A stretch of DNA of 64,000 nucleotides from Roseofilum casamattae BLCC-M143 (GTDB taxonomy: Bacteria; Cyanobacteriota; Cyanobacteriia; Cyanobacteriales; Desertifilaceae). Positions 1-14,966 of the stretch are shown piece by piece. The notes under the pieces are model-generated. The model searched no databases and was not told the origin of the DNA. It was given only the letters and a program-made list of their open reading frames with translations. The DNA is taken from assembly GCF_030068455.1 (NCBI RefSeq), contig NZ_JAQOSQ010000013.1:89338-153337 (forward strand), in the 5' to 3' direction. Position 1 is the first letter of the stretch. The number at the start of each line of letters is the position of its first letter. Made by a program: the position numbers and the translations under genes.

Positions 1-923
1 GTTCCCGTGCCGTGAGCCTCCAGGTAAGAAATACTTTCTGGATGAACTTCTGCAACCATCTGCGCGGTACGAATAGTACGAATTTGCCCCTCTTCACTGG
101 GGGCGGTATAACCAATTTTTCCGGCTCCATCATTGTTAATAGCCGAACCTTTAATCGTGGCGTAAATATAATCTCGATCTGCGATCGCATCTTCCAAACG
201 CTTGAGGACCACAGTACCAATTCCATTTCCGCCTAAAGTACCGTTTGCTCCCGCATCGAAGGCGCGACAATGACCGTCGGGAGAAATAATTTCATCGGGA
301 GATAATGTCAGTTCGTTTTGCGGAACTTTAACCGCAACCCCTGCTGCTAGAGACATATAACATTCTCCCGACAGCAAGCTCTGACAAGCCAGGTGAACCG
401 CAACTAAAGAACTCGAACAGGCCGTTCCCACGCTCACGCTCGGCCCTTTCAAATCGAGTTTATAAGAAACGCGAGTTGGAACGTAATCTTTATCCACCCC
501 AATTAAACGTTGCAAACCACCAATGGAATTGAGTAATTCCGGATTCGGCAGTAAATTATAGTAGAGATAATAGCCCATGCCGACCCCGGCATAGACGCCA
601 ATCGATCGCTTTTCTCGAGACGAATCATAACCGGCATCTTCTAAAGCTTCCCAGGCACATTCTAAAAAGAGTCGATGTTGCGGGTCCATGACTTCCGCTT
701 CTCTCGGAGAAAAGCCAAAGAAAGACGCATCAAAATATTCAACGTTATCTAAAATAGAGCCAGCTTTCACTGTTTTTTTACCAGCTTCGTTTTCCGTGAA
801 GACGGAAATTAATTCTTCACCCGAAATCAAATGCTGCCAAAACTTGTCAATTGTCTCAGATTGGGCGAAGCGTCCGGAAAGACCGATAATTGCTATTTCT
901 AAACCATTGTATTCGGAAGTCAT
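1..923 (-). CDS. Type I polyketide synthase, N-terminal ketosynthase (partial, runs off window)
   Basis: The reading frame starts at an ATG at 923 (MTSEYNGLEIAIIGLSG) and stays open for 307 codons to the window edge, so only the start of the protein is seen. It is a beta-ketoacyl synthase domain: the N-terminal IAIIGLSGRF, the active-site cysteine in TACSSSLVA, and EAHGTG with the first catalytic histidine are all present. The second histidine lies beyond the edge. The domain catalyses decarboxylative Claisen condensation of an upstream acyl thioester with a malonyl-type extender. It follows the NRPS gene by 33 bp on the same strand, so it probably accepts the NRPS product. Later domains (AT, KR, ACP, release) cannot be seen. 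Confidence 0.93.
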   Translation of the reverse strand, partial: MTSEYNGLEIAIIGLSGRFAQSETIDKFWQHLISGEELISVFTENEAGKKTVKAGSILDNVEYFDASFFGFSPREAEVMDPQHRLFLECAWEALEDAGYDSSREKRSIGVYAGVGMGYYLYYNLLPNPELLNSIGGLQRLIGVDKDYVPTRVSYKLDLKGPSVSVGTACSSSLVAVHLACQSLLSGECYMSLAAGVAVKVPQNELTLSPDEIISPDGHCRAFDAGANGTLGGNGIGTVVLKRLEDAIADRDYIYATIKGSAINNDGAGKIGYTAPSEEGQIRTIRTAQMVAEVHPESISYLEAHGTG

Positions 924-956
924 GGATATATTTCGGCAATGAATAAAAAATGAAAA

Positions 957-3900
957 TCAGTGGGATAAGAGAGATTGCTTGTATCGTTGTTTTAATCGCT
1001 GTCGTCCTTTTTGTAAGGCTAAGTCTGCTTCTAGATCCAGTTCGGACTCGCACGCGAACACCTTATTCTGTCCGGATAAATTCTGGCTGAGTTGTCGAAT
1101 TGTGGAATAATTAAATAAATCAACAAGGGTAATATTTTTCGACAATGCCGGTAATTGTTTTAAGATTTTTCCGTAAATTCGAGTCAGTAATAAAGAGTTT
1201 CCTCCCAAGTCAAAAAAGTTACGAGTGACTCCAACATTTTCCACTTCGAGAACCTCTTGCCAAATGGTAGCAATGGTTTGTTCGAGGGAATCTCGCGGGG
1301 CAATATCGGGTTCGCGATTTTGAGTGCTGACATAATCGGGAATTGGTAAGGCGCGGCGATTGATTTTTCCATTGGCAGATAAGGGAAATGTTTCTAGAAA
1401 AATAAATGCCGAGGGGATCGTATAATCTGGGAGACGATCGCTGAGAAAATGCCGCAGATCTGCCGCCGGGATTTCTTCGCCCTCGCTAATAAGATAAGCC
1501 ACCAAACGCTTGTTGCGCCCGTCATCTCCTAACACTTCCGCGATCGCATGTTTGATTTGCGAATGCCTGGTTAAAGCGGCTTCAATTTCCCCTAACTCAA
1601 TGCGATAGCCCCCAACTTTCACCTGAAAGTCATTGCGTCCCAGAAATTCAATATTGCCATCGGGAAGATAGCGCCCCAAATCGCCGGTTTTATAGAGCCT
1701 TTCTTTGGTTTTCGGATGGATAAAGAAGTGTTTATCCGTTTTCTCGCGATCGCGCCAATATTCTCGCGCCAAACCAATGCCGCCAATATACAACTGTCCG
1801 GCAACCCAGACGGGACGGGGTTCTAGAGCTTCGTCGAGCACGTAAAAGCGCTGATTGGTGAGGGGAATGCCGTAAGGAATGCTCTTCCAAGTCGGTTCTA
1901 CGCTCTCAATGGGATAGTAAATCGACCAGATGGAGGCTTCTGTAGCTCCTCCCAAGCTCACTATTTTGATATTCTGGTTCTCTGCTTTAACCTGCTCGGG
2001 TAAAGAGAGGGGAATCCAATCGCCACTGAGGAGAACTAATCGCAAATCTGCTAAATTATGGGTATAGTCCGCCATCATCTGCATCAAGGCTGGAACGGAA
2101 TTCCACAGGGTAACTCCATGTTGTTGCAATAGCTCCAACCAATGCCGAGGATCGCGATCGCGCTTGGCTTCGGGAACCACGATCGCGCCACCAGCAGCCA
2201 AGACTCCGAAGATATCGTAAACCGAAAGATCGAAACTTAAAGAAGAGAGGGCCAGCACGCGATCGCTCGCATCTATCTCAAAGCGTCGATTAATTTCCTC
2301 AATGGTATTCACCGCTCCCCGATGGTCGATGGCTACTCCTTTAGGCATTCCTGTGGAACCGGAGGTATAAATGAGGTAAGCCAAATCTTCGGGAGTTTGT
2401 TGCGCAGTTAGCGGGGTAGAACTTTCTGCGGTAAAATCGTCGCGATCGACGCACAGACTAACGATTTTGGACGGCCAAGATAGGCTCTCGTCCAGCCATG
2501 ATTGGGTCAAAACCAGACTCACTTCGCTATTGGCCAAAAGAATATTGCGGCGCTCTTCCGGCCAGGCTGGATCGATGGGAACATAAGCCGCTCCTGCTGC
2601 TAAAATTGCTAAAACGGCGACGATTTGTTCCCAGCCTTTTTCCATAACCACTGCCACAAAGTTACCGCGACTGGCTCCGAGTTTCTGCAAGCCATGGGCG
2701 ATTTGGTTGGAGAGGGAGAATAACTGTTGATAGGTGAGGGTTTGCTGGGGAGCGATTACTGCCAGTTCTTCGCCTTGCTGTTCTACTCTTGTGGCAAACA
2801 ATTGGTGCAATAGAGCCTCGGAAATGGGCGCATCGGTGCGATTAATGGCATCGTAAAGGTCGAGCTGTGTGGGAGGAAGCAATGCGGGCATTTCCTGCCA
2901 AGCCGTTGTCGAGGTTGCTAGGGTTGCGAGCAAGCGACAATAAGCGGCAAACATCTCGGCAATTAAACCTTCAGGGAACAGTTCCTCGACTACATCCCAG
3001 TTAAACGTCAGCGCTCCTTTTTCTTCCCAAACTTGTACGTCCATCCAGGTTTGCGATGCTTGACTGATGGCATAGACTAAGTCGCCAAAATGGGTAAAAC
3101 TGGAGGTTTCCTGACCCAATGCTGCCATGCCCAGAGTACTGGTAAACACGATAGGAAAGGCATTGGGAGCCGTTCCATTGAGGCGGGCTAGTTCGCGGGC
3201 GACTCGTACGCCGCTAAAATAGCGATGTTCCAGGTCTTGGGATAATTGCTGCTGAATGGCGATCGCTCGTTGGCGGAAAGAAGTATCGCCAGAAGCATCC
3301 ACTGCTAATAGGGTTGCCGAAGTAAAATCCCCAATTAAATCGTTAATTTGCGAATGGAAGGGCAAGCGATTGAATAGGGCTAAATTAACGGTAAAACGAG
3401 GATTCTTACTCCAAGTTCTCAATACTTCGCTAAATGCTGCTAGTAAAGCGACTGAAGGAGTCACGCTTGCTCGGGCAGCATTCTGTTTCAATTGTTGCCA
3501 CTCTTCTCGACTCAAGCGCGCGTCATAGCGACGGGTTTGCGGGCGGTCGATGGTGCTCGGATGCCTGGCGATGGGTAATTCTGGGGCTGGAGGTAGAGTA
3601 GCGAGGCGATCGAGCCAATATTGTCGCGATCGCCGATAGAGAGCTGTTGTTTCTAACTTTTGTTCGGCGAGGACGCAATCTCGGAAGGTAATCTCTAAAG
3701 GTGGAAGCTGGAGATCCGGTTGGTTATAGCATTGATGCCATTCTTCAAAGAGGCGAAAGAGACTCCAAGCATCAAAGATTTGCAGGTCGTAGCTGATGTG
3801 GAGGCAAACCCGATCTTCCGGTAGTTGGGTGGCGCGAAATTCAAATAACGGCCACTGCTCGCCGCTCAATACTTGGTGAGATAGCTCTGCGCGGATGGTT

Positions 3901-4412
3901 GCAATGGCGCGATCGATCTCCGTGGCAGAAGACTCGCGCAAATCTAAAACGGCCATTTCATAGGCTGGAACCTGTTCGAGAATTTGCTGCCGACCGTCGG
4001 GCAAAATAATCGCCCGTAACATATCGTGGCGATCGATTAAATATTGTAGGGCGCGGTTTAAGCGATCGACTTCTAAATTAGTTCCCTCGATTTCATAATA
4101 GCCGTGGTTGGCAACATTCCCCAGTTCCATCACGCCCAAACGACCTACCCAATAGGCGTGTTGGAGATCGGTGAGGGGGAAGGGTTGATGGCGACTTTCG
4201 AGGTCTGGAATTAAGGGCGGAAGATCGGCTAATGTTGCTTCTGCTTCTCCCTCGTCGAATAGTGCCAAAAGCTCTGCTTTTCGCTCTTGCAAGCTTTGAC
4301 GCAGTTCGACAGTCAGAGCGCCAGCGGGAGCATCAACTACAAGAGAGTTGCCGGTTACGGCGAGTTTAATCTCTTGAGCGCTAAGTTTTTGGAGGAGAAG
4401 TTGTAAATCCAT
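957..4412 (-). CDS. NRPS: TubC-type docking - heterocyclization (Cy) - adenylation (Cys code) - PCP
   Basis: One-module nonribosomal peptide synthetase of about 1151 residues. Residues 1-50 resemble a TubC_N docking domain (MDLQLLLQKLSAQ). Next is a condensation-type domain with PFPLTDLQHAYWVGR and DLQIFDAWS, the D-x4-D-x2-S motif of cyclization domains. The adenylation domain has YTSGSTGMPKG and FDLSVYDIFG; its specificity residues read by eye as D-L-Y-N-L-S-L-I-W-K, the code known for cysteine in HMWP2- and PchE-like synthetases. A carrier protein with LGGNSLL (pantetheine serine) ends the chain; no thioesterase is seen. The expected product is a 2-substituted thiazoline on the PCP. I chose the ATG at 4412 over an upstream TTG at 4478 because the docking domain starts there. 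Confidence 0.93.
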   Translation of the reverse strand: MDLQLLLQKLSAQEIKLAVTGNSLVVDAPAGALTVELRQSLQERKAELLALFDEGEAEATLADLPPLIPDLESRHQPFPLTDLQHAYWVGRLGVMELGNVANHGYYEIEGTNLEVDRLNRALQYLIDRHDMLRAIILPDGRQQILEQVPAYEMAVLDLRESSATEIDRAIATIRAELSHQVLSGEQWPLFEFRATQLPEDRVCLHISYDLQIFDAWSLFRLFEEWHQCYNQPDLQLPPLEITFRDCVLAEQKLETTALYRRSRQYWLDRLATLPPAPELPIARHPSTIDRPQTRRYDARLSREEWQQLKQNAARASVTPSVALLAAFSEVLRTWSKNPRFTVNLALFNRLPFHSQINDLIGDFTSATLLAVDASGDTSFRQRAIAIQQQLSQDLEHRYFSGVRVARELARLNGTAPNAFPIVFTSTLGMAALGQETSSFTHFGDLVYAISQASQTWMDVQVWEEKGALTFNWDVVEELFPEGLIAEMFAAYCRLLATLATSTTAWQEMPALLPPTQLDLYDAINRTDAPISEALLHQLFATRVEQQGEELAVIAPQQTLTYQQLFSLSNQIAHGLQKLGASRGNFVAVVMEKGWEQIVAVLAILAAGAAYVPIDPAWPEERRNILLANSEVSLVLTQSWLDESLSWPSKIVSLCVDRDDFTAESSTPLTAQQTPEDLAYLIYTSGSTGMPKGVAIDHRGAVNTIEEINRRFEIDASDRVLALSSLSFDLSVYDIFGVLAAGGAIVVPEAKRDRDPRHWLELLQQHGVTLWNSVPALMQMMADYTHNLADLRLVLLSGDWIPLSLPEQVKAENQNIKIVSLGGATEASIWSIYYPIESVEPTWKSIPYGIPLTNQRFYVLDEALEPRPVWVAGQLYIGGIGLAREYWRDREKTDKHFFIHPKTKERLYKTGDLGRYLPDGNIEFLGRNDFQVKVGGYRIELGEIEAALTRHSQIKHAIAEVLGDDGRNKRLVAYLISEGEEIPAADLRHFLSDRLPDYTIPSAFIFLETFPLSANGKINRRALPIPDYVSTQNREPDIAPRDSLEQTIATIWQEVLEVENVGVTRNFFDLGGNSLLLTRIYGKILKQLPALSKNITLVDLFNYSTIRQLSQNLSGQNKVFACESELDLEADLALQKGRQRLKQRYKQSLLSH

Positions 4413-4464: not shown

Positions 4465-5961
4465 CTAAAGATGGACAATTTCTCGAGGTCGGTCGGTTTG
4501 AACAGTCAGGGTGTTTTTTAGTTCTTTGACCAGAAGGCGATCGCAGAGATAGGCAGCGAGGCGATCGCTATTGTTCTCGCCCAAAAATTGTTGTAAGGGA
4601 ATAGGGATCCGAAAATCTTCCTCTAAACGTCGCTTCAGTTCGATCGCCACGAGGGAGTCAACTAAACCGCCAAAGGATAAGTCTGCGCTCAGTTCTTCGG
4701 GGGAACATTGCAGATAAACCGCCAACCAACCTAAAAGATAGGTGGCGACGAGGGTAGGGCGTTCTGGAGGTAGAGCAGTTAATATGTCTCGATATGAGGG
4801 CAGTTTTGGGGAGATTTGTTCTTCCTGTGGCACACAACTGGCGATGCTCTCTTCAGTAGCGGAAATGTTGAGAGGAGGAGCGGGAGGCTCTCCCAGAACT
4901 GTTTCTCCCCAACGGATGATGACAGCGGCAGAGGTGGCAGCAGCACCATTGGCATAAATTAAAACGAGGTCGCCTGGGTTGAGTTTCCCAACGCGAGCGG
5001 CACGCTCTAAATTGGCCAGAGGGAAAACAGGTCCGATGTTGCTATAACGAGGGTAGAGGTTGAGAGCGCGATCGCGATCGATTCCTAAAGCTCGAATACA
5101 AACATCGGCATACCAAGCCGTCGGGGTATTGAAAGCGAAAAAGTCAATGTCAGTTAAGCTAACTCCAGCCATTTCGGCAGCTTTTTGACAGCAGGAGCGC
5201 GCTGCATCCACGGCGGTTTCAGCCAGAGAGATGGCATTATCTCCCGTTCGCGCCAAGATGTGAGGTTGGCCTTTGCTATTGTCGGCTAGTTCGTAACGAT
5301 AGGCATTGCAAGTTTCGGTTGCGGGGGCGATCGCTACGCTCAATATTCCTTCTTCCTCTGGAACTAGACTGACGATTAATGCGCCTGCTCCATCTCCTAA
5401 AGACCAAGAGAAGGAATCGCTATTGTCCGTCGCATTTGAGCCAAAATGAGAAACCACAATGAGGATATGTTCGTATCGTCCCGACGCGATAAAGGTGCGA
5501 GCGGTTTCTAAGGCCACTAGGACACTGGAACAGGTGGATTCAATATTCCACGCCGGACAATGCAGCCCGATCTCCCGAGCCAAATAAGCGGCATGACCGG
5601 GACCGGGGCGATCGGGAAATAGGGCGGTAACTAAGGCCAGATCCACTGCTTCTGGAGTTAGTCCGGCAAGGGCGATCGCTTCTTTAGCTGCCCGAGATTC
5701 TAAGGCTAGTCCCGATTCTTCCGGTTGCAAAATACGTCGCTCCTTCGCCCCTCGGAAGGGATCGGCGAGGTAAGGTGCAACGGCCTGAGACCAAAGATCG
5801 GCATCCTCCATAGTTGCAACGTTTCTCTGTCGCTTTCTCGCTTTCGGAAGCAAGTGAGGACATCTCTCGCGCCAATAATCATTGGTGCGAATGGTGTTGG
5901 GAAAGGCTAGAGTTAAGGAACGAATGCCGATAGAAGCGTTCATGGTAGGGTTGGACTCCAT
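4465..5961 (-). CDS. KAS III-like ketosynthase/acyltransferase fused to a C-terminal acyl carrier domain
   Basis: Residues 1-350 have the KAS III (FabH-like) fold signature, with the nucleophile in IESTCSSVLVALE. Where FabH has the His of HQAN the sequence reads FFAFNTPTAWYADV, and the Asn motif is ANGAAATSAA, so the usual Cys-His-Asn triad is not obvious. Residues 405-485 form a carrier domain with GGLVDSLVAIELKRR (pantetheine serine), followed by a 20-residue charged tail. The ATG at 5961 overlaps the stop of the preceding gene (TAATG), which implies translational coupling; ATG 5943 is an alternative. The context suggests it loads or moves the salicyl group towards the NRPS. Thioester-transferring KAS III relatives (CerJ/DpsC-like) are the nearest analogy; the exact reaction is unknown. 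Confidence 0.8.
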   Translation of the reverse strand: MESNPTMNASIGIRSLTLAFPNTIRTNDYWRERCPHLLPKARKRQRNVATMEDADLWSQAVAPYLADPFRGAKERRILQPEESGLALESRAAKEAIALAGLTPEAVDLALVTALFPDRPGPGHAAYLAREIGLHCPAWNIESTCSSVLVALETARTFIASGRYEHILIVVSHFGSNATDNSDSFSWSLGDGAGALIVSLVPEEEGILSVAIAPATETCNAYRYELADNSKGQPHILARTGDNAISLAETAVDAARSCCQKAAEMAGVSLTDIDFFAFNTPTAWYADVCIRALGIDRDRALNLYPRYSNIGPVFPLANLERAARVGKLNPGDLVLIYANGAAATSAAVIIRWGETVLGEPPAPPLNISATEESIASCVPQEEQISPKLPSYRDILTALPPERPTLVATYLLGWLAVYLQCSPEELSADLSFGGLVDSLVAIELKRRLEEDFRIPIPLQQFLGENNSDRLAAYLCDRLLVKELKNTLTVQTDRPREIVHL

Positions 5962-6350
5962 TAACAAGCGGGCATTATGTCATGCTTGCCGATCGCCCAA
6001 GCGACAGCATAGCGAGAAGTATGGCTGATACTGACCAGCCATTCCCCCAGACCAACATGAGAGTTGGCAATTTGACCGCGATCGCCGAACGCAACAGCAG
6101 GCGCGCCACCGGGCAATCTGCGAATCTCCAGATCTTGGTACGAGAGTTCGGGCAAATAACTGAGGATGCTCTGTTTTGCTGCCAGACGACCTCCTAGATA
6201 CTGCAACCGTCGTTCTCCTCTCTCAAAAGAGTTGCGTTCGGTGAGGGTAAAGTATTGGTCTTCATCAATCCCTCGCAGGCTATCGACTTCGACTAAAGTT
6301 AAAGCGCGATCGCCAGTCGGGTTGTAAAGTTTCCAGGAATTATCGATCAT
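5961..6350 (-). CDS. AcpS-like 4'-phosphopantetheinyl transferase family protein (possibly degenerate)
   Basis: A 129-residue protein with the second half of the AcpS signature: YLGGRLAAKQSIL (compare GRxAAKEA), DLEIRRLPGGAP, and WLVSISHTSRYAVAWAIG (compare SISHT..YA.A). The N-terminal GxDxVEI metal-binding motif is not clean: the equivalent stretch reads TLVEVDSL, so the usual Mg-binding aspartate seems to be missing or moved. It lies between salicylate synthase (48 bp upstream) and the KAS III-ACP gene, overlapping the latter by one base. It could prime the carrier domains of this locus, or be an inactive or dehydratase-linked AcpS-fold protein. A second AcpS-type protein is encoded at 10382-10834. 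Confidence 0.68.
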   Translation of the reverse strand: MIDNSWKLYNPTGDRALTLVEVDSLRGIDEDQYFTLTERNSFERGERRLQYLGGRLAAKQSILSYLPELSYQDLEIRRLPGGAPAVAFGDRGQIANSHVGLGEWLVSISHTSRYAVAWAIGKHDIMPAC

Positions 6351-6398: not shown

Positions 6399-7724
6399 TT
6401 ACTCAATAACAAGATTGGCAAGCATCGTGTTCATTTTGTTAACCGACTCGGTATATTCATTAGCGGGAACGGACTCGGCAACAATTCCCGCTCCGGCATT
6501 GAGATGAATGGTATCTCCATATTGGAAAACCGAGCGAATGGCAAGAGCAAAATCGGCTTGTCCGTTGTCGCTTACCCAGCCAATACTGCCAGCGTAGAGG
6601 CCTCGAGGTTCGTCTTCGAGGCGATCGATCCAGTGCAATGCTTGCTGCTTGTCTATCCCAGAAACTGTAATGCCCGGAAAGAGAACTTTTAGAGCATCCC
6701 AGAGGGTGCGATCGGATTGCAGGAGACCGCCCACGCGAGAGGAAAGATGCTGAACGCAACGATACTTCTTAATTTCCATGAAATTGAATACGCCAACACT
6801 TTTGGGCAAGCAAACCGAAGCCATTTCCTGTTGTGCTAGCCAAGCAGAAAGCGCGTGTTCTTTCACTTCTTTGGCATCGGAAAATAACTCGGCATACAAG
6901 TGCAAATCTTCTTCAAGGGTTTTGCCTCGCGGCCGCGTTCCAGCGAGAGGGTTGGTAACGACCGATCGCCCGTCTGTTGCTTTCATGAGAATTTCAGGAC
7001 TGAAACCGACTCCCTTAATATTGCCCAGATTAAAAGCGTAAGAACGGCAAGCGTTATTGGTTTGGTTGGCGATCGCATAAGTTCCGAGAACGTTTAATTC
7101 TCCCGAATACTTGGCGGTGCGGGAAATAATGGCTTTTTGCAAGCGCTTGTCTTTGATGGCGCCAATGAGTTCTGCAACTCGACCTTCGTAATCTTGGCGA
7201 TCGCTAAAGTCAATGGAGACGGAAGTCGCCGCGTAAGTCGGCAATGGCATCTCATGCATTAAAAGCGTGCCAATGTCGTCGTTCGCCTCGATACTCCGGC
7301 AACAAATTCCCTCCGGAATAAAGATTAATTCGATCTCGGGAATAATGAGGTAAAGCAGTTCGTTTTGGCTTTGTTTGGAGTACGAGCAGTAAAAACTCGC
7401 CATATCGAAGGCAATATAACCATAGGCCGTCCAATTTTCTAAAGGCAGGGCATTAAGCATCTCTTCAACTTGTTTGAAGGGATCGCGAATGGGCTGAGAA
7501 TTGACTTCATTCCCCGACATTTCAATGCGATCGCTGCCGACAGCGATTTTTATATATTCGCCGATCGCAATTCGGACTTCTCCTTCTCCTTCATAGAAAA
7601 TATATCGATCGAGGAGTCCTGCTTTTTGAATATTATTCAGAACTACGAGAGGCTCAATATTATGATTGGGAAAGAATTGCTCTCGATACTTTTTTTTCGT
7701 ACGACCTTTTGCTTGAGTTACCAT
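6399..7724 (-). CDS. Salicylate synthase (chorismate-utilising, MbtI/Irp9 type)
   Basis: A 441-residue chorismate-binding enzyme. Hallmarks are NPLAGTRPRG, EHALSAWLAQQEMASV, KKYRCVQHLSSRVGG and LYAGSIGWVSDNG in the order seen in MbtI, Irp9 and YbtS. These enzymes turn chorismate into isochorismate and then eliminate pyruvate to give salicylate. An isochorismate synthase alone would need a separate lyase, and none is present. The ATG at 7724 has GAGG about 8 bases upstream; the ATG at 7736 has none, so I prefer the shorter start. It is the first gene of the minus-strand biosynthetic operon and supplies its starter acid. Confidence 0.85.
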   Translation of the reverse strand: MVTQAKGRTKKKYREQFFPNHNIEPLVVLNNIQKAGLLDRYIFYEGEGEVRIAIGEYIKIAVGSDRIEMSGNEVNSQPIRDPFKQVEEMLNALPLENWTAYGYIAFDMASFYCSYSKQSQNELLYLIIPEIELIFIPEGICCRSIEANDDIGTLLMHEMPLPTYAATSVSIDFSDRQDYEGRVAELIGAIKDKRLQKAIISRTAKYSGELNVLGTYAIANQTNNACRSYAFNLGNIKGVGFSPEILMKATDGRSVVTNPLAGTRPRGKTLEEDLHLYAELFSDAKEVKEHALSAWLAQQEMASVCLPKSVGVFNFMEIKKYRCVQHLSSRVGGLLQSDRTLWDALKVLFPGITVSGIDKQQALHWIDRLEDEPRGLYAGSIGWVSDNGQADFALAIRSVFQYGDTIHLNAGAGIVAESVPANEYTESVNKMNTMLANLVIE

Positions 7725-8004
7725 TTTTTGCCTCATGATTGGGTGAGTCTATATCAACTAAGGATTGACAATTGAATAGATATAATGGTGACGAATGCAA
7801 TATTAAAACTCTGTATTTACTGCAGAATTTTGTAGTTGAATGTACTTATGATATCAACTGAATTGGATTTATTTTTCTCGGATCCGGTCTTTTTTTTGTC
7901 TCAAACGTATTTTTTTTTTTGATTCTTCCTAAGCGTGACAAAATAGATTGCGCTTGAGAGAACATAAATGATTCTCTCTTTGCACAACCTAAAAAAAATC
8001 AAGT

Positions 8005-8799
8005 TTATGGTTTTAACTTTGTCTCAAGAATGAGAGTCATTGAGCGAATAAAAGGTAACCAAGTCAGCAAACACATTATTCCCCACCGTTCGGGATGTAA
8101 TTGGAATAAGGAACGAGCTTCCACAATCTCCAGTCCCATACGAGCAACTTCGTCAATATCTTTGACAAACCACTGTAAAGGAGCGCCCAAGGCTTCCAGT
8201 TTTTTAGCTGACTTGCGATAGGATGTTCCCACAACATCAAAGATAAAAGTTGCTTCGGGAAAACGTTGTCGCATTTTTGTGATAAGTCGAGTGACAGATT
8301 CCGAATCGAAGTACATTAATAAACCTTCGGCAACAATAATAATATCCTCCGAAGGTCTCGAGGGCAGTTGCTCCATCCAGTCAAAGTCTAAGGCAGAAGC
8401 TCCGATAAATTTATAGTTCTCGGTTTCGCGATCGAGTTGTTTGCGAATATCATTGACTTCTGGCAAATCAAGATTAATCCAGTATAAATTTTCCTGTTGC
8501 AAGCGATAGTATCGACTGGATAAACCCGCTCCTAACTCGATAACAAGGGGGTTCTGGCAGCGGGCTAGGTGACGTTGGACCACGCGATCGAAGTGTTCTG
8601 CACGAATAGCCCAACCGGCTTGGGTAGACTTGCTGTAAAAAGAGTTGAGTTCCGAGTTCCAACTGAGGCGATCGCTCCACTCTCGGGCGTGGCGATCGCG
8701 AAAAAGACCGTTAGAATTCCGATCTTCGTCAGCCCTCGCTCGAGTCGTAAGAACCATGGTGCGGGGTACCCCCGCGAGTTGTAATTGAGATGGGGACAT
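8005..8799 (-). CDS. SAM-dependent O-methyltransferase, leucine carboxyl methyltransferase (PPM1/LCMT) family
   Basis: About 264 residues with the SAM-binding motif VIELGAGLSSRYYRL, the acidic YWINLDLPEV and IIVAEGLLMYF, a pattern typical of polyketide-associated methyltransferases of this family. A longer open frame reaches back to 8931 but runs inside the AraC gene; the ATG at 8799 sits 13 bases after that gene's stop and starts at the family's N-terminus (gvpRTMVLTTRARADE). It is probably co-transcribed with the regulator. In this setting it may methylate the siderophore or an intermediate, but the substrate cannot be read from sequence. Confidence 0.8.
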   Translation of the reverse strand: MSPSQLQLAGVPRTMVLTTRARADEDRNSNGLFRDRHAREWSDRLSWNSELNSFYSKSTQAGWAIRAEHFDRVVQRHLARCQNPLVIELGAGLSSRYYRLQQENLYWINLDLPEVNDIRKQLDRETENYKFIGASALDFDWMEQLPSRPSEDIIIVAEGLLMYFDSESVTRLITKMRQRFPEATFIFDVVGTSYRKSAKKLEALGAPLQWFVKDIDEVARMGLEIVEARSLFQLHPERWGIMCLLTWLPFIRSMTLILETKLKP

Positions 8800-8812
8800 G
8801 ACGATCGAATAT

Positions 8813-9835
8813 TTAATGAGATTGAGAACTTTTTTGGTACGTTTTAGGAGTCGTGCCAAAATGATGTTTGAATGCCGTACTAAACCGACTGAGACTGGCA
8901 TAGCCAACGGTTTGAGCAACTTCCGAAACATTCATCTGTTGTTCGAGAAGAAGTTGGCGCGCCCATTCCATGCGTCGATCGCGAAGGTAACCGAATACTG
9001 TCGTTCCGAAGACCTCGCGAAAGCCAATTTTGAGCTTGTAATCGTTAATTCCTGCTTTTCTGGCCAGTTCCAACAAGGAAGGGGGAGATTCTATGTTGTC
9101 TATTAGAATTTCCTTGGCATTATGAATGCAATCGAGATCTTGGGGTTGCAAGGGCCCCTTTTTGGACGGTAATTTTTTACCTTCGCTAATTTGAGCCAGT
9201 TTGAGAGCCACGAGTTCGAGAGCTTTGCTCTCAATATAGATTTGCGCGATCGCGCCCTCATAAGGACAGTGCAAAATTTGATGAAGGGCGATCTGCATGG
9301 CGGGGGAGGTGGGACCGGCATGGAAAAAAGTCTCGGCTGAAGGCTCGATCCCTCGTAACAAGGGTTGGAGCAAGTCGAAATTTCCTTCCAGATAGTCTCT
9401 CAAAAACTCTGGAGCGAGCAAAATCGTTACGGCTAAATAGGGGCGATCGGCATAGTAGGTCATTTGAGCGCGATCGCCCCCACAAGCAGTCAAGCAATTG
9501 TGTCCCTCCTGCAAGACAAAACAAGAAGCCGGCCAGCCGACAACACCGCTAAGCTCGCCGGAAATTAGAAAATAGAATTTCAAGGGATCGGTATGAAGGT
9601 GCTGGCCTTGCAGCACCACATTCTCTTTCATTTGCTGATCTTCAACCGAGATTTGCAAGCCCGAACGCAAATATGTAAACCGAACTGAACCTCTGCCGAT
9701 CTCCTTTAACCATTCCAGTTGCGCTTCTGTTCTCTCCACATCATAGAAATACAGATTTTGGGAATTCATTTGTTCTAGCAGTTTGGGAAAGCCTTGTTGC
9801 ATCCCATGCCGTGGAAAGATCAACTCTATAGCCAT
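8813..9835 (-). CDS. AraC-family transcriptional regulator, PchR-like
   Basis: A 340-residue protein with an N-terminal sensor region and a C-terminal double helix-turn-helix (about residues 240-335). The first helix pair lies in SLLELARKAGINDYKLKIGF and the second in NVSEVAQTVGYASLSRFSTA, ending FGTTPKTYQ. The KLKIGFREVFGTTVFGYLRDRRM stretch is the form seen in PchR and YbtA, which activate pyochelin and yersiniabactin genes when the ferric siderophore binds. It is divergent from the acp-acpS-ligase operon and next to the methyltransferase. A role as ferri-siderophore-responsive activator of this locus is inferred from family and position. Confidence 0.88.
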   Translation of the reverse strand: MAIELIFPRHGMQQGFPKLLEQMNSQNLYFYDVERTEAQLEWLKEIGRGSVRFTYLRSGLQISVEDQQMKENVVLQGQHLHTDPLKFYFLISGELSGVVGWPASCFVLQEGHNCLTACGGDRAQMTYYADRPYLAVTILLAPEFLRDYLEGNFDLLQPLLRGIEPSAETFFHAGPTSPAMQIALHQILHCPYEGAIAQIYIESKALELVALKLAQISEGKKLPSKKGPLQPQDLDCIHNAKEILIDNIESPPSLLELARKAGINDYKLKIGFREVFGTTVFGYLRDRRMEWARQLLLEQQMNVSEVAQTVGYASLSRFSTAFKHHFGTTPKTYQKSSQSH

Positions 9836-10149
9836 TATAGTTCAATCTCGGTAATCGATTATTGAAAATGATTTCTAGTAATTCTACCTTGGAAGGCAAT
9901 TGAGAAAACGAAAATTTTCCTTAAGGCAAACTCTTTTATTTTGCCAAAACAGTTTTCCCGATCCCCCAAAAGCTTGATTCAGCAATGATTTTAGGACTTT
10001 TAGCTCTCTAAGGGAGACAAGCACTATCGAAAAAAATCTGTTTTTAGTGAATTTTTCTCTCTGACCTCTGATATGATATTTGTGCCTCAGGCTGACAAAG
10101 CCACTTTTCCAGTATATTGAGAAAGATTAGTGATTATAAAAACGCGAGT
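9836..10149. promoter_or_regulatory. Divergent promoter region of the siderophore locus, with a weak Fur-like site
   Basis: This 314-bp AT-rich spacer separates the AraC gene from the carrier-protein operon, so it should hold promoters in both directions. At 9857-9875 the sequence GATTATTGAAAATGATTTC resembles a Fur box (about 10 of 19 positions). A TGATATGATATTTG stretch near 10069-10082 could contain a -10 element for the plus-strand operon. Both are candidates only; no gene is visible here. Confidence 0.35.
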
Positions 10150-10404
10150 ATGGAACAGAACCCCTCTATTGACACTCAAAACACCTTAAAGAGCATTTTG
10201 AGAAACTTGGGTATTTCCGAAGAGTTGTTGTACGACGATGCTTTGCTCTATCGCGACCTGCAACTCGATTCGACTGAGATCGTGGAAATCGCTCTAGCTC
10301 TCAAACGGCAACTTGGAGTTGCCCTTAAATTAGAAACTCGTCAGGATAAAACTCTGGCTGAAGTGAGTCAAGAGATTGCGGATGCACGCTCGAGTTTGGC
10401 ATAA
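10150..10404 (+). CDS. Free-standing acyl (aryl) carrier protein
   Basis: An 84-residue carrier protein. The helix II motif YRDLQLDSTEIVEIALALKR holds the phosphopantetheine serine. It is the first gene of a three-gene unit with a PPTase and an acyl ligase, overlapping the PPTase start, which points to a dedicated carrier loaded by that ligase. I take the ATG at 10150; a TTG at 10117 would add 11 residues, and neither has a convincing Shine-Dalgarno sequence. It is likely the acceptor for the salicyl group, equivalent to the aryl carrier domains of PchE or HMWP2. Confidence 0.82.
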   Translation: MEQNPSIDTQNTLKSILRNLGISEELLYDDALLYRDLQLDSTEIVEIALALKRQLGVALKLETRQDKTLAEVSQEIADARSSLA

Positions 10405-10834
10405 CCTCTCGGAAGCAAACTGGCATGGACAACACGGGCCGATCGCGGCAATTGGCATCGACTTGGTTGAAATTTCCCAGGTCGAAAGCTTTCTTCGCCG
10501 TTACGATCGCGACACTCTCACTTTAATCTTTGCCGCCAAAGAACTCGATGCCAGCCAACTCAATCCCAATCCCGCCCAGTACCTGGCCCTATGTTTTGCC
10601 AGTAAAGAAGCACTCGGCAAAGCACTGGGAACGGGGTTAGCTGAAATTCACTGGTTTGAAATTGCTGCCCGGCTCAACCCATTGGGACGCTTATCGGCTT
10701 CTTTATCGGGTTCTGCCCGCCAAAAAGCCGACGAACTGGGATGGCAGCATTGGGAGATGAGTTGGTTGTCTTGGCAGAACCATCTCCTCGTTCGCGCGAT
10801 CGCTTATCAATCTATAACCAGCAACGATTCATGA
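10382..10834 (+). CDS. Holo-ACP synthase-type 4'-phosphopantetheinyl transferase
   Basis: About 150 residues with the AcpS N-terminal metal-binding motif IGIDLVEISQVESFL and the CoA-binding FASKEALGKALGTGL. The C-terminal SISHT-like motif is replaced by MSWLSWQNHLLVRAIA. The gene overlaps the end of the acp gene and its stop overlaps the ligase start (ATGA), so the three are translationally coupled. It should convert apo-carrier proteins to holo form by moving phosphopantetheine from CoA. TTG 10376 is a possible earlier start; ATG 10382 is preferred. Confidence 0.8.
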   Translation: MHARVWHNLSEANWHGQHGPIAAIGIDLVEISQVESFLRRYDRDTLTLIFAAKELDASQLNPNPAQYLALCFASKEALGKALGTGLAEIHWFEIAARLNPLGRLSASLSGSARQKADELGWQHWEMSWLSWQNHLLVRAIAYQSITSNDS

Positions 10835-12414
10835 ACGATTTTCTCGACCCCTTACCCAGTAACTTTAACGCTGCTGCCTATTTCTTGGATAGAGATTCGA
10901 TTCGAGAAAAGGGAGATAACATAGCGTTTTATACCAAGGATACAACCTACACTTACAGCCAAACTCGCGATCGCGTTCGACAGACGGCTAATTTACTCGC
11001 CGAACTGGGAGTAGAACGGGAAAACCGCATCGCCATTTTACTGAACAATACACCAGAATTTGCCTTTGCCTTTTGGGGAGCGATTTGGCTGGGAGCAATT
11101 CCCGTTCCCATCGTTCCCAGTTGTAGCGTTGAGGACGTGCATTACATTCTCCACAACTCGCGGGCCAAAGTTTTACTGAGCGATCGCGAGGGACACGCTC
11201 GAATCGGGCAGATTGACTCTCCCTTTCTCCGTCATTCTCTCTCAATTGATGGCGAAAAGGAGACCGACACCCCGAGCAATCGCTCTTTCCTCTCCCTCCT
11301 GGAGGAACAGAATAATCTGCCTCTCCCCGCAGACACCCACGGAGACGAACCCGCCTTTTGGCTCTATACCTCCGGCAGTACGGGCAAACCCAAGGGGGTC
11401 ATTCACCGCCAGCAAAGTATGGTAATGTGCGATCGCGCTTACGGTCGGGGAGTATTGGGACTGGCCGAAACGGATATTACCTACTCCGTCGCTCCCCTCG
11501 CCTTCGCCTACGGATTGGGCAACTCCCTTTATATGCCCATGGCTGTCGGTGCCGCCGCCGTTTTGTCTACAACCGGCAATGCCTTCGATATTGTCGCCGA
11601 CATCGATCGCTACCAACCGACTATTTTCTTTGGCATCCCCAGTATTTATGCCAATCTTTTAGCCGTGCGAGAGCTTGCCCCCCTCAATGTTTCCAGTTTG
11701 CGCCTGTGCGTTTCGGCTGCCGAACAGTTACCTCCAACTGTTTGGCAGCAATGGCGAGATGCCTTCGGTCTGGAAATTTGCGAAGGGATCGGCACGACAG
11801 AATTTTTGCACATATTTTTATCCAATCGACCGGGAGCCTGCAAGCCGGGCACTTCCGGCCGTCCCGTTCCCGGTTATGAAGTGCGCGTTGTAGACGAGGA
11901 CGGACAGCCTCAACCTGCTAATGCCATCGGCAACTTAGAGGTGAAAGGAGAAAGTTTGATGCTCGGTTATTGGAATCGCTTGTCCGAAACCCGCGCAGCT
12001 CTATGCGGCGAGACCATGCGAACGGGGGATAAATATATCTGCGACGAAGAAGGCTACTTTAAGTTTATGGGACGAAAAGGAGACCTGTTTAAAGCTAACG
12101 GTCGGTGGATTTCTCCCTTAGAGATTGAGGAAATTTTATTGCAGCATCCCGATATTCTCGAAGTTGCGATCGTGCCCGAGTCAAAAGGCGGCGAACAACT
12201 GACGAGGATTATTGCCCATATCGGACTCAAGCCGGAACGTCGCACTTCTGAGGCTTTGGAGAAAAATATCTATCAGTTTGCCAAACAAAATTTACCTCAC
12301 TTTAAAGTACCTCAATCATTTTGTTTTGTCGATCGCCTGCCCCGCACCTCGACGGGGAAAATTCATCGTAAATTGCTGCGGGGAATGGCCAGTTCTCCAA
12401 TCCCACAGTCTTAA
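10831..12414 (+). CDS. Aryl acid-activating AMP ligase, benzoate-CoA ligase family (predicted salicylate loading)
   Basis: About 527 residues of the ANL superfamily. Present are the P-loop YTSGSTGKPKGVIHR, the A5 motif EGIGTTEFLHIFLSN, the A7 motif MRTGDKY, and the C-terminal lysine in RTSTGKIHRKLL. Overall it looks more like benzoate-CoA ligases (VAPLAFAYGLGNSLYMPMA, RKGDLFKANGRWISPLEIE) than like the EntE/MbtA/YbtE branch. Because it sits directly behind a carrier protein and a PPTase, and a salicylate synthase is nearby, the likely job is to adenylate salicylate and load it on the carrier. CoA as acceptor cannot be excluded. The start ATG overlaps the previous stop (ATGA at 10831). Confidence 0.82.
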   Translation: MNDFLDPLPSNFNAAAYFLDRDSIREKGDNIAFYTKDTTYTYSQTRDRVRQTANLLAELGVERENRIAILLNNTPEFAFAFWGAIWLGAIPVPIVPSCSVEDVHYILHNSRAKVLLSDREGHARIGQIDSPFLRHSLSIDGEKETDTPSNRSFLSLLEEQNNLPLPADTHGDEPAFWLYTSGSTGKPKGVIHRQQSMVMCDRAYGRGVLGLAETDITYSVAPLAFAYGLGNSLYMPMAVGAAAVLSTTGNAFDIVADIDRYQPTIFFGIPSIYANLLAVRELAPLNVSSLRLCVSAAEQLPPTVWQQWRDAFGLEICEGIGTTEFLHIFLSNRPGACKPGTSGRPVPGYEVRVVDEDGQPQPANAIGNLEVKGESLMLGYWNRLSETRAALCGETMRTGDKYICDEEGYFKFMGRKGDLFKANGRWISPLEIEEILLQHPDILEVAIVPESKGGEQLTRIIAHIGLKPERRTSEALEKNIYQFAKQNLPHFKVPQSFCFVDRLPRTSTGKIHRKLLRGMASSPIPQS

Positions 12415-12551: not shown

Positions 12552-14966
12552 ATGAAAAATTTCCATCCTTTACACAGTTTTTGGCTAGCTCCGGCGATCG
12601 TCCTCGTTTCTGCCTCAAGTGCTTTCGCGCAAATCGCTGAAATTACCAACGTTCGTATCGAATCCACCCCCGAAGGATTGGAAATTCTCTTAGAAGGCAA
12701 CGGAACCGAAACCCTAGAACTCTTTCAAACCGTAGAAGGGAATCGTCTCATCGTTGAGATTAACAATGCTAGTCTCATCGGTGGTGCCTTCGAGCGAGAA
12801 AATCCTACGGAAGGCGTGGATTTACTAGAAGTTACTGCCCGAGATGACAATAACATTGAGGTGGTGGTAACGGGGGCGATCGCCGCTCCCGAAGTTTCCG
12901 AAGTCATTCAAGGAAATGGACTATTAAACATTAATCTCCTTGTCTTTCGCGAAGAAGGTTTAATTCTAACCGTCACCGCCGAAAAAGTAGAAGAAACCAT
13001 TCAAGACGTTCCCCTCAGTATCACTGCCTTTTCCGAACAAAATATTCAAGATGCCAATATTGATTCTTTAGACAGTGTTGCCGACAATACCCCTAATTTT
13101 TCGTTCTTTGGAGAAGGCTCGCTCACGGGTAACTTTAACATCTATACCATCCGAGGTCTGGCCAACAGTAACTTTCTCAGTCGCGATACAGTCGGATTCT
13201 TTGTCGATGACGTTCCCTACGACTATGGAGCATTTTTAGACCTGGATCTGGTCGATGTCGAACGGATTGAAGTGTTGCGCGGACCGCAAAATACCCTCTA
13301 TGGCAGAAATGCTCAAGCCGGGGTAGTTAATATTATTACCAAAAGACCGAGTAACGAACTCGAAGGAAAATTCATCGCCGATTACGGGAATTATAATCAA
13401 CGCAGTGTGGCTCTTTCAATTACTACCCCCATCGCAGAAGACCGCCTCTTTTTGCGCTTGTCGGGACAACACAGGGCACAAGATGGCTATATAAGAAATA
13501 CCGTGCCCGATCGAGACGTTGGCGATATTTCCGGGAGCAATCTTCGCGGAACATTAGTTTGGACTCCTAACGATGATTGGGAAATTTCTTTTGGGGCTTC
13601 TTATCAAGAAGATAACAATGAAACACCGATTTTGCAATTAGAGAGCGACAACACTCGATTTCGTGTTTCGCAAGATTTTAACAATTTCAGCGAACTCCAA
13701 AGCAATACCCAAACCTTGAAAATTGCCTATGAAAATCCCAACTTTATCGGGACTGCAATTACAACCCGTCGTTATTCCCAACAAGACTTAGAATTCGATT
13801 CCGATCTTTCAGAAGTCGATTTATTGGTGGCTGTTGCCGACTATGATTCAACGGTATACTCTCAAGAATTACGCTTTCAATCCCCTCCTTCTGACAATCG
13901 TTTTCAATGGTTAATTGGAGGATATTACGAGAATCGTACCTTTAATGTCACCGCAGACGGATTGCGCTTTAGCAGTGCGGCAGCCGAAGCATTTGAATTG
14001 CCAGGGGCAGGCTTCGATCGCACCCAGGCTGAAATAGAGCAAATCACTTACGCTGCTTTTGGTCAAGCCAGCTATCGGCCTGTCGATCCCCTCACCTTTA
14101 CCTTGGGATTGCGCTATGATGCCGCAACAATAAGGATGGACCAGCAGCGCAATTTGGAAGTCGAGGGTTCGGATATGGTGGTTCCTATAGTGGCATTTAA
14201 TGACGCCGAAACCACCAGCGACGCTCTCTTGCCTCGCTTTGCGATCGAATATGAAGTCACGGATGATGCAACCATTTATGGAAGTATCACGCGGGGTTAC
14301 AAGCCAGCCGGATTGAATTTTCGTACAGAAAGCGAGGATACTTTAGTCATTAATGAAGAACTTTCTTGGAATTACGAAATCGGAGTAAAAACAGCTTGGT
14401 TTGACGATCGCCTCATCGCCAATTTAGCCGTATTTCACAACGTCCTTAACGATTTCCAAGTCGGTCTGCTCGATGCCACGGGAGCTACCCGCAATATTGC
14501 TAATGCGGAAGTGAGTATTACAGGATTGGAATTTGAGTTAAAGGCCAGACCGATCGTTGGGTTGGATCTTACCGCTGGGTTTGGTTATACCAATGCTAGA
14601 TACGATAGCTTTTTCAATCGCTTCACCGACGAAAGTCTCGATGGCAACAAGCTCGCCTATGCCCCAGAATTTACCTTGAATTTGGCAGCACAGTATCGAT
14701 CGCCTGAGGGACTTTTTGCGCGGGTTGAATTGAGTACTTTGGGAAGTTATTTCACCGAAGAAACGAATACCATCTCTCAAGGTACAGTGACGATACTGGA
14801 TGCAACGTTGGGTTATGAAGTCGAAAATTATGGGATTTATTTGGTCGCAGACAATATTTTCGATAGTCGCTTCTTCACTTCAGGAGCTATCGTTGGAGCG
14901 TTCGGAAATGTTGTGACTTATAATCAGCCTTTTACAGCTCGCGTTCTGTTTAAAGCATCGTTTTAA
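12552..14966 (+). CDS. TonB-dependent outer-membrane siderophore receptor with AMIN domain
   Basis: 804 residues. A signal peptide ends near SSAFAQ; residues about 27-125 form an AMIN domain, a common cyanobacterial addition; the plug follows (about 145-270) with VDVERIEVLRGPQNTLYGRN and GVVNIITKRP; then a beta-barrel ending in a C-terminal phenylalanine (VLFKASF). The plug pattern (LRGPQ-TLYG-AQ-G-NI-T) is close to that of FyuA, the yersiniabactin/pesticin receptor. It lies 137 bp downstream of the ligase on the same strand, so it is the expected importer of the ferri-siderophore made here, energised by TonB (a tonB-like gene is at 19433-21154). Confidence 0.92.
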   Translation: MKNFHPLHSFWLAPAIVLVSASSAFAQIAEITNVRIESTPEGLEILLEGNGTETLELFQTVEGNRLIVEINNASLIGGAFERENPTEGVDLLEVTARDDNNIEVVVTGAIAAPEVSEVIQGNGLLNINLLVFREEGLILTVTAEKVEETIQDVPLSITAFSEQNIQDANIDSLDSVADNTPNFSFFGEGSLTGNFNIYTIRGLANSNFLSRDTVGFFVDDVPYDYGAFLDLDLVDVERIEVLRGPQNTLYGRNAQAGVVNIITKRPSNELEGKFIADYGNYNQRSVALSITTPIAEDRLFLRLSGQHRAQDGYIRNTVPDRDVGDISGSNLRGTLVWTPNDDWEISFGASYQEDNNETPILQLESDNTRFRVSQDFNNFSELQSNTQTLKIAYENPNFIGTAITTRRYSQQDLEFDSDLSEVDLLVAVADYDSTVYSQELRFQSPPSDNRFQWLIGGYYENRTFNVTADGLRFSSAAAEAFELPGAGFDRTQAEIEQITYAAFGQASYRPVDPLTFTLGLRYDAATIRMDQQRNLEVEGSDMVVPIVAFNDAETTSDALLPRFAIEYEVTDDATIYGSITRGYKPAGLNFRTESEDTLVINEELSWNYEIGVKTAWFDDRLIANLAVFHNVLNDFQVGLLDATGATRNIANAEVSITGLEFELKARPIVGLDLTAGFGYTNARYDSFFNRFTDESLDGNKLAYAPEFTLNLAAQYRSPEGLFARVELSTLGSYFTEETNTISQGTVTILDATLGYEVENYGIYLVADNIFDSRFFTSGAIVGAFGNVVTYNQPFTARVLFKASF

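Follow-up and report, generated by a model that had tools for sequence, protein, structure and literature searches.

In the synthetases HMWP2 and PchE of yersiniabactin and pyochelin biosynthesis, the aryl carrier sits inside the nonribosomal peptide synthetase (NRPS), is loaded directly by an AMP ligase, and hands its salicyl group to a heterocyclization (Cy) domain. Here we analyze a 64,000-nucleotide stretch of DNA from the cyanobacterium Roseofilum casamattae BLCC-M143 (contig NZ_JAQOSQ010000013.1, positions 89,338 to 153,337 of the forward strand; hereafter the window), which encodes a homologue of FatG, a protein of the fatuamide A gene cluster annotated as a β-ketoacyl-acyl carrier protein synthase III (KAS III). 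Unlike in HMWP2 and PchE, the carrier domain in the window forms one polypeptide with a KAS III domain and is predicted to dock onto an NRPS in trans. Our sequence comparisons suggest that this protein is probably a non-elongating, KAS III-like salicyl transferase that loads its own carrier for the docked NRPS.

The fatuamide A genes are ordered FatB (carrier), FatC (phosphopantetheinyl transferase), FatD (ligase), FatE (salicylate synthase), FatF (AcpS-like protein), FatG (KAS III), and FatH, which has Cy, cysteine-activating adenylation (A), and thiolation (T) domains; in the published proposal, FatD loads FatB, followed by FatH, and FatG appears only in a table as 'KAS III', with no role (PMC11877528). 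The salicyl carbon of fatuamide is joined directly into the thiazoline (PMC11877528), and the lusichelin pathway is likewise drawn with salicyl directly on the thiazoline (PMC12210259), so that in neither product is there a chain extension between salicylate and cysteine. Compared by description, not by sequence, FatG stands in the same cassette order as the window protein and has a KAS III of about the same length, with no known difference between the two. The complete fatuamide-type starter cassette, consisting of carrier, ligase, salicylate synthase, KAS III-carrier, and Cy-A(Cys)-T NRPS, is present in the window and likewise in related loci.

A KAS III domain lacking the catalytic histidine

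The KAS III-carrier gene lies on the minus strand as a single open reading frame (ORF) of 498 codons for amino acids, with its ATG at 5961 and its stop at 4465-4467; the plus strand of the same interval contains stops throughout. An initial annotation of this DNA had described a KAS III fused to a carrier domain without giving the strand, and both the translation and the Pfam domains (ACP_syn_III at residues 140-211, ACP_syn_III_C at 264-351, PP-binding at 414-472) bear this out. The AlphaFold model has a mean pLDDT of 88 and superposes on PqsC, FabH, and PqsD with Z scores of 36-41. Pfam, alignment, model, and structure matches all place the protein in the thiolase fold of KAS III type; CerJ and ChlB3 were not among the 50 structure matches listed for the model, which carries no weight either way. 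According to its entry title, a PqsD structure holds covalently bound anthranilate, an ortho-substituted benzoyl group like salicyl.

Residues were aligned with Aquifex FabH (2ebd), Bacillus subtilis FabHA (8vd9), and PqsD (3h76). The histidine of the HQAN/HQPN motif (FabH His244) falls on Asn278, the asparagine within HQAN is replaced by Thr281, and the catalytic Asn274 of FabH falls on Asn308. On these sequence alignments and the fold matches, the predicted active-site trio is Cys144-Asn278-Asn308, in place of the Cys-His-Asn triad of FabH-type enzymes. The initial annotation had noted a clear nucleophilic cysteine, which corresponds to Cys144, and the lack of the usual His-Asn motif; the latter is correct for the histidine and for the asparagine of HQAN, but the equivalent of the catalytic Asn274 is retained. 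Structure prediction and superposition on FabH, which it had suggested, yielded the confident KAS III model described above, with a Cys-Asn-Asn trio read from the alignment.

Homologues were collected by searching 386 genomes within the phylum and scanning 84,980 species genomes. This yielded 30 fused homologues plus one KAS-NRPS fusion from genome G172 (31 fused proteins in all, of which a few are the same locus picked up in each search), along with 69 unfused homologues of about 375 amino acids. Cys144, Thr279, Pro280, Thr281, Trp283, and Asn308 are invariant in all 31 fused proteins, and position 278 is asparagine in 30 and serine in one. The unfused homologues all have the cysteine and the tryptophan (69/69 each), and Asn278 is found in 60 of the 69. 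Because the residue pattern is conserved across the 31 fused homologues, it is not due to chance or sequencing error. True FabH genes of the same genomes reach E values of about 1e-28 at best, versus 1e-85 or better for the family. In a tree with a FabH outgroup chosen by its HQAN motif, one branch splits the fused from the unfused forms (SH-aLRT 100), and the root between them is unsettled. The FabH-rooted tree placed its root on the window branch (branch length 2.45); we distrust this placement and claim only the fused/unfused split. One locus (L093:11264-12406) has a second, tandem KAS III copy with the motif FHAPMAW, which carries histidine where the family has asparagine.

Relation to CybF, to KAS III-like acyltransferases, and to KS0 domains

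The KAS domain shares 40-48% identity with genes of clusters encoding phenylalanine ammonia lyase, 4-coumarate ligase, and a thiamine diphosphate (ThDP) enzyme, compared to about 30% with FabH. A ThDP enzyme gene accompanies most unfused homologues and none of the fused loci; the unfused relatives adjoin it and often also homologues of an aromatic ammonia lyase and a 4-coumarate ligase. This is the gene set of the cyanobacterin cluster, whose CybF carries the annotation 3-oxoacyl-ACP synthase and begins by O-acylating an acyloin with coumaroyl-CoA before it performs the ring closure (PMC12395478, PMC8777810, PMC13288894). Since the unfused relatives share their gene set with CybF, this kinship, based on matching gene sets and annotation rather than on the CybF sequence, suggests that the histidine-less KAS III group may consist of aryl-acyl transferases. 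CybF and the window protein are alike in their KAS III annotation, and CybF takes an aryl thioester; CybF differs in forming a C-C bond during ring closure with an acyloin, whereas the window protein, which lacks a ThDP partner, has a carrier domain and a docking tail.

CerJ and ChlB3 also use a KAS III fold for acyl transfer, ChlB3 moving 6-methylsalicyl to a carrier, but they have a Cys-His-Asp triad (PMC9573744) and a separate acceptor carrier. Residue spacing suggests that their histidine lies in the region of FabH Asn274, where the window protein has Asn308; because Asn308 occupies this position, the His-Asp solution appears to be absent here, and no histidine is conserved in the family. 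A parallel in residue change is offered by the KS0 domains, non-elongating ketosynthase (KS) domains of trans-AT polyketide synthases (PKSs), in which the first catalytic histidine is lost, to asparagine in Art14KS4, a change read as transthiolation without condensation (PMC8302727). The window protein shares the replacement of the first histidine with these domains, but KS0 domains have a type I KS fold and lie inside PKS modules, and the window protein is a stand-alone protein of KAS III type with a carrier, at the start of an NRPS line. That it would work like a KS0 domain or ChlB3, within a sequence group that includes CybF-like genes, is well supported by these comparisons.

The genome of R. 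casamattae itself carries a second histidine-less KAS III gene (L047:2682-10540; contig C2, about 294,000-302,000), whose neighbors encode an ammonia lyase, a 4-coumarate ligase, an O-methyltransferase, and a ThDP enzyme, probably a furanolide (cyanobacterin-like) cluster. The actinobacterium Lentzea waywayandensis (L113:3289-10621) has an ammonia lyase, ligase, ThDP enzyme, and KAS III set with NSPVAW at the motif, a possible furanolide cluster outside the cyanobacteria.

Predicted docking of the fused carrier to the NRPS

TubC_N-type domains occur where a carrier meets a C or Cy domain, and they recognize a short peptide at the C-terminus of the partner, the last five residues of which make contact via charged and hydrophobic residues (PMC9113145). 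A TubC_N (beta-hairpin) domain was present at the N-terminus of all 26 partner NRPSs scanned and of two more. On the other side of the interface, 23 of 30 fused KAS proteins end in the motif REx[LIMVF]x[LI], the others having similar acidic-hydrophobic tails; as a C-terminal motif it was found in none of the 69 unfused KAS proteins and in none of 1400 other ORFs of the loci, free carriers included. Both sequence marks of a short linear motif/beta-hairpin docking pair are thus present, TubC_N on the acceptor and a charged-hydrophobic C-terminal peptide on the donor.

In the closest relative (G172 contig C123, 75% identity in the KAS domain), the KAS-carrier and Cy-A-T form one protein of 1585 amino acids, in which neither the C-terminal motif nor TubC_N is found. 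The pairing of motif and TubC_N, together with a natural fusion that has neither element, indicates that the fused carrier, and not the free one, would be the upstream donor to the Cy domain. Docking and fusion are the strongest new point of this analysis, and they favor the proposal in the initial annotation that the fused carrier is the acceptor and the NRPS comes next.

Proposed mechanism and alternatives

A salicylate synthase is encoded nearby in 29 of the 31 fused loci, with a benzoate-CoA-ligase-family enzyme and a free carrier, and a Cy-A-T NRPS is nearly always present; in the two other loci, the contig ended close upstream in one and the gene was not found within 6.8 kb upstream in the other. 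Salicylate would be made by the synthase and activated by the ligase, and Cys144 would accept the salicyl group from a thioester, borne most probably by the free carrier (FatB homologue). With Asn278 instead of the catalytic histidine, no malonyl decarboxylation is expected; salicyl would then move onto the pantetheine attached at Ser436 in the fused carrier, the C-terminal peptide REIVHL would dock with TubC_N of the following NRPS, and the Cy domain would join salicyl to cysteine and close the thiazoline. The residue pattern and how well it is conserved, the arrangement of domains, the docking pair, the one natural fusion, and the cassette are seen in the sequences themselves; salicyl as substrate, the FatB homologue as donor, and transfer as the chemistry are all deduced here from context. 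Transfer rather than condensation, as the initial annotation had supposed, is favored because the exchange of histidine for asparagine is conserved with the cysteine kept, because the published products have no extra C2 unit, and because of the CybF-type kinship and the docking and fusion evidence.

Several points weigh against salicyl transfer followed by docked delivery. In FabH, the acyl group is carried on the cysteine, and histidine and asparagine serve decarboxylation; a FabH histidine mutant is reported to be only about ten-fold less active, keeping about a tenth of the activity (PMC4807248). The loss of this histidine, from which the initial annotation had argued, is therefore suggestive of a non-condensing enzyme and is not proof. 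A conserved substitute histidine was sought in the family; only position 320 is mostly histidine, and the window protein has Arg320. No other conserved base that could take its place is visible. Since, in addition, CerJ H295N is inactive (PMC9573744), the activation of Cys144 is unexplained. The fusion evidence is a single case, as no KAS-NRPS fusion other than that of G172 turned up in 389 genomes searched within the order, and the docking of REIVHL with TubC_N is read from motifs.

The alternative that survives best is that the KAS domain takes salicyl from salicyl-CoA, the ligase product, for transfer to the fused carrier, and that the free carrier acts in a different step. CybF works on coumaroyl-CoA or N-acetylcysteamine (SNAC) thioesters (PMC12395478), and CoA thioesters are the substrates of FabH and PqsD (PMC4807248); however, the free carrier gene adjoins the ligase gene in nearly every cassette and has no other apparent use, which makes this possibility a tentative one. 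The free carrier as salicyl donor, put forward in the initial annotation, fits the published FatB/FatD proposal, with salicyl-CoA as its rival.

It is a good deal more doubtful that the KAS domain is an idle scaffold and the protein simply an aryl carrier in trans, loaded directly by the ligase. The catalytic histidine is gone, and the aryl carriers of HMWP2 and PchE are loaded in this way, but all 31 fused proteins, the KAS-NRPS fusion included, have Cys144 and Asn308, a strictness of conservation that an idle domain would not show; there would also be no need for a separate free carrier. A proofreading hydrolase clearing wrong acyl groups from the fused carrier is very improbable: ChlB3 does hydrolyze acyl-SNAC when no acceptor carrier is present (PMC9573744), but the fatuamide cluster holds a separate thioesterase, FatA (PMC11877528), and the docking position would make the fused carrier an obligatory donor. 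Ordinary KAS III condensation, extending salicyl with malonyl, is scarcely credible and was set aside on the published product structures, in which no C2 unit separates salicyl from thiazoline (PMC11877528, PMC12210259), and the catalytic histidine is absent across the whole fused family, even though fold, cysteine, and one asparagine are retained and the FabH histidine mutant is partly active (PMC4807248).

For salicyl transfer onto the fused carrier, a more specific formulation would be a Cys-Asn-Asn KAS III counterpart of KS0 domains, in which a homologue of the furanolide synthase performs histidine-free carrier-to-carrier salicyl transfer and in-trans delivery to the Cy domain; we consider the chances of this to be evenly balanced. 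The gene itself is published (FatG); the open literature found does not appear to describe what the protein does, its active-site pattern, or its docking logic. For a gene that stands in a published metallophore cluster with no function assigned, and for about 30 homologues in cyanobacteria, the proposal supplies a role that can be tested. It also connects the loading of metallophore starters with the furanolide synthase CybF. If true, KAS III enzymes would have been recast as acyl shuttles by the same histidine-to-asparagine change as the type I KS0 domains, and NRPS engineering would benefit from a portable protein that loads aryl groups and bears a docking tag.

The salicylate cassette and its surroundings

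The features of the cassette are collected in Table 1. The ATG of the KAS-carrier gene shares one base with the stop of the AcpS-like gene, and 52 bases separate the end of the KAS-carrier gene from a good NRPS ATG (4412). The Cy domain of the NRPS has the motif YDLQIFDAWS, read by eye, which corresponds to the DxxxxD of heterocyclization domains, and its A domain has the code DLYNLSLIW, also read by eye, which we take to be cysteine-type from established knowledge of such codes. The salicylate synthase scores 308 bits against TIGR03494, just below the cut-off of 325.

Table 1 Features of the salicylate starter cassette in the window
Feature	Positions	Strand	Basis
NRPS TubC_N-Cy-A-T (FatH homologue)	957..4412	-	Domain scans, sequence; likely ATG 4412
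TubC_N docking domain at NRPS N-terminus	4254..4397	-	Domain scans
KAS III-like acyltransferase (predicted) with carrier domain, 498 aa (FatG homologue)	4465..5961	-	Translation, Pfam, residue alignment, AlphaFold
C-terminal docking motif REIVHL (putative), residues 493-498	4468..4485	-	Motif counts across homologues
Fused carrier domain, residues 414-472; pantetheine Ser436 at 4654-4656	4546..4722	-	Pfam, sequence
KAS III domain, residues 70-352	4906..5754	-	Extent aligned with FabH; Pfam, structure matches
Asn308	5038..5040	-	On FabH Asn274 in alignment
FNTPTAW, residues 277-283, at HQAN region	5113..5133	-	Asn278 on FabH His244 in alignment
Cys144, nucleophile	5530..5532	-	Residue alignment; invariant in 31 fused and 69 unfused homologues
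AcpS-like protein without canonical motifs (FatF homologue)	5961..6350	-	Domain scan, sequence
Salicylate synthase (FatE homologue)	6399..7736	-	Chorismate_bind; best NCBIfam model TIGR03494 salicyl_syn
Free carrier protein (FatB homologue), proposed salicyl donor	10117..10404	+	Domain scan, locus comparison
Canonical holo-ACP synthase (FatC homologue)	10376..10834	+	Motif GIDLVE...KEA
Benzoate-CoA-ligase-family enzyme (FatD homologue), proposed salicylate activator	10741..12414	+	TIGR02262 above cut-off

The AcpS-like protein lacks the usual GID and KE metal-binding motifs, having KQ here and often KK in relatives. Among the salicylate loci, 18 encode both the AcpS-like protein and a canonical AcpS, 9 encode neither, and 3 encode one alone.

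In four relatives, the KAS-carrier and NRPS genes are separated by a gene for a flavin-dependent halogenase (L061:11543-13198, L067:11656-13323, L073:11612-13282, and L078:11637-13283), and L074 has a gene of halogenase size in the same place. This location suggests that carrier-bound salicyl may be halogenated in those relatives.

The cluster extends past the window (window 1-956, L053) with a PKS of KS, acyltransferase, ketoreductase, and dehydratase domains, and two NRPSs, one containing a nitroreductase-type domain like that of thiazole oxidases and the other a methyltransferase domain. These extension genes, together with an LCM methyltransferase at 8005-8931, resemble the published lusichelin set (PMC12210259). 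Beside the cassette, the plus-strand gene at 12552-14966 encodes a TonB-dependent siderophore-type receptor with an N-terminal AMIN domain, which is consistent with uptake of the product.
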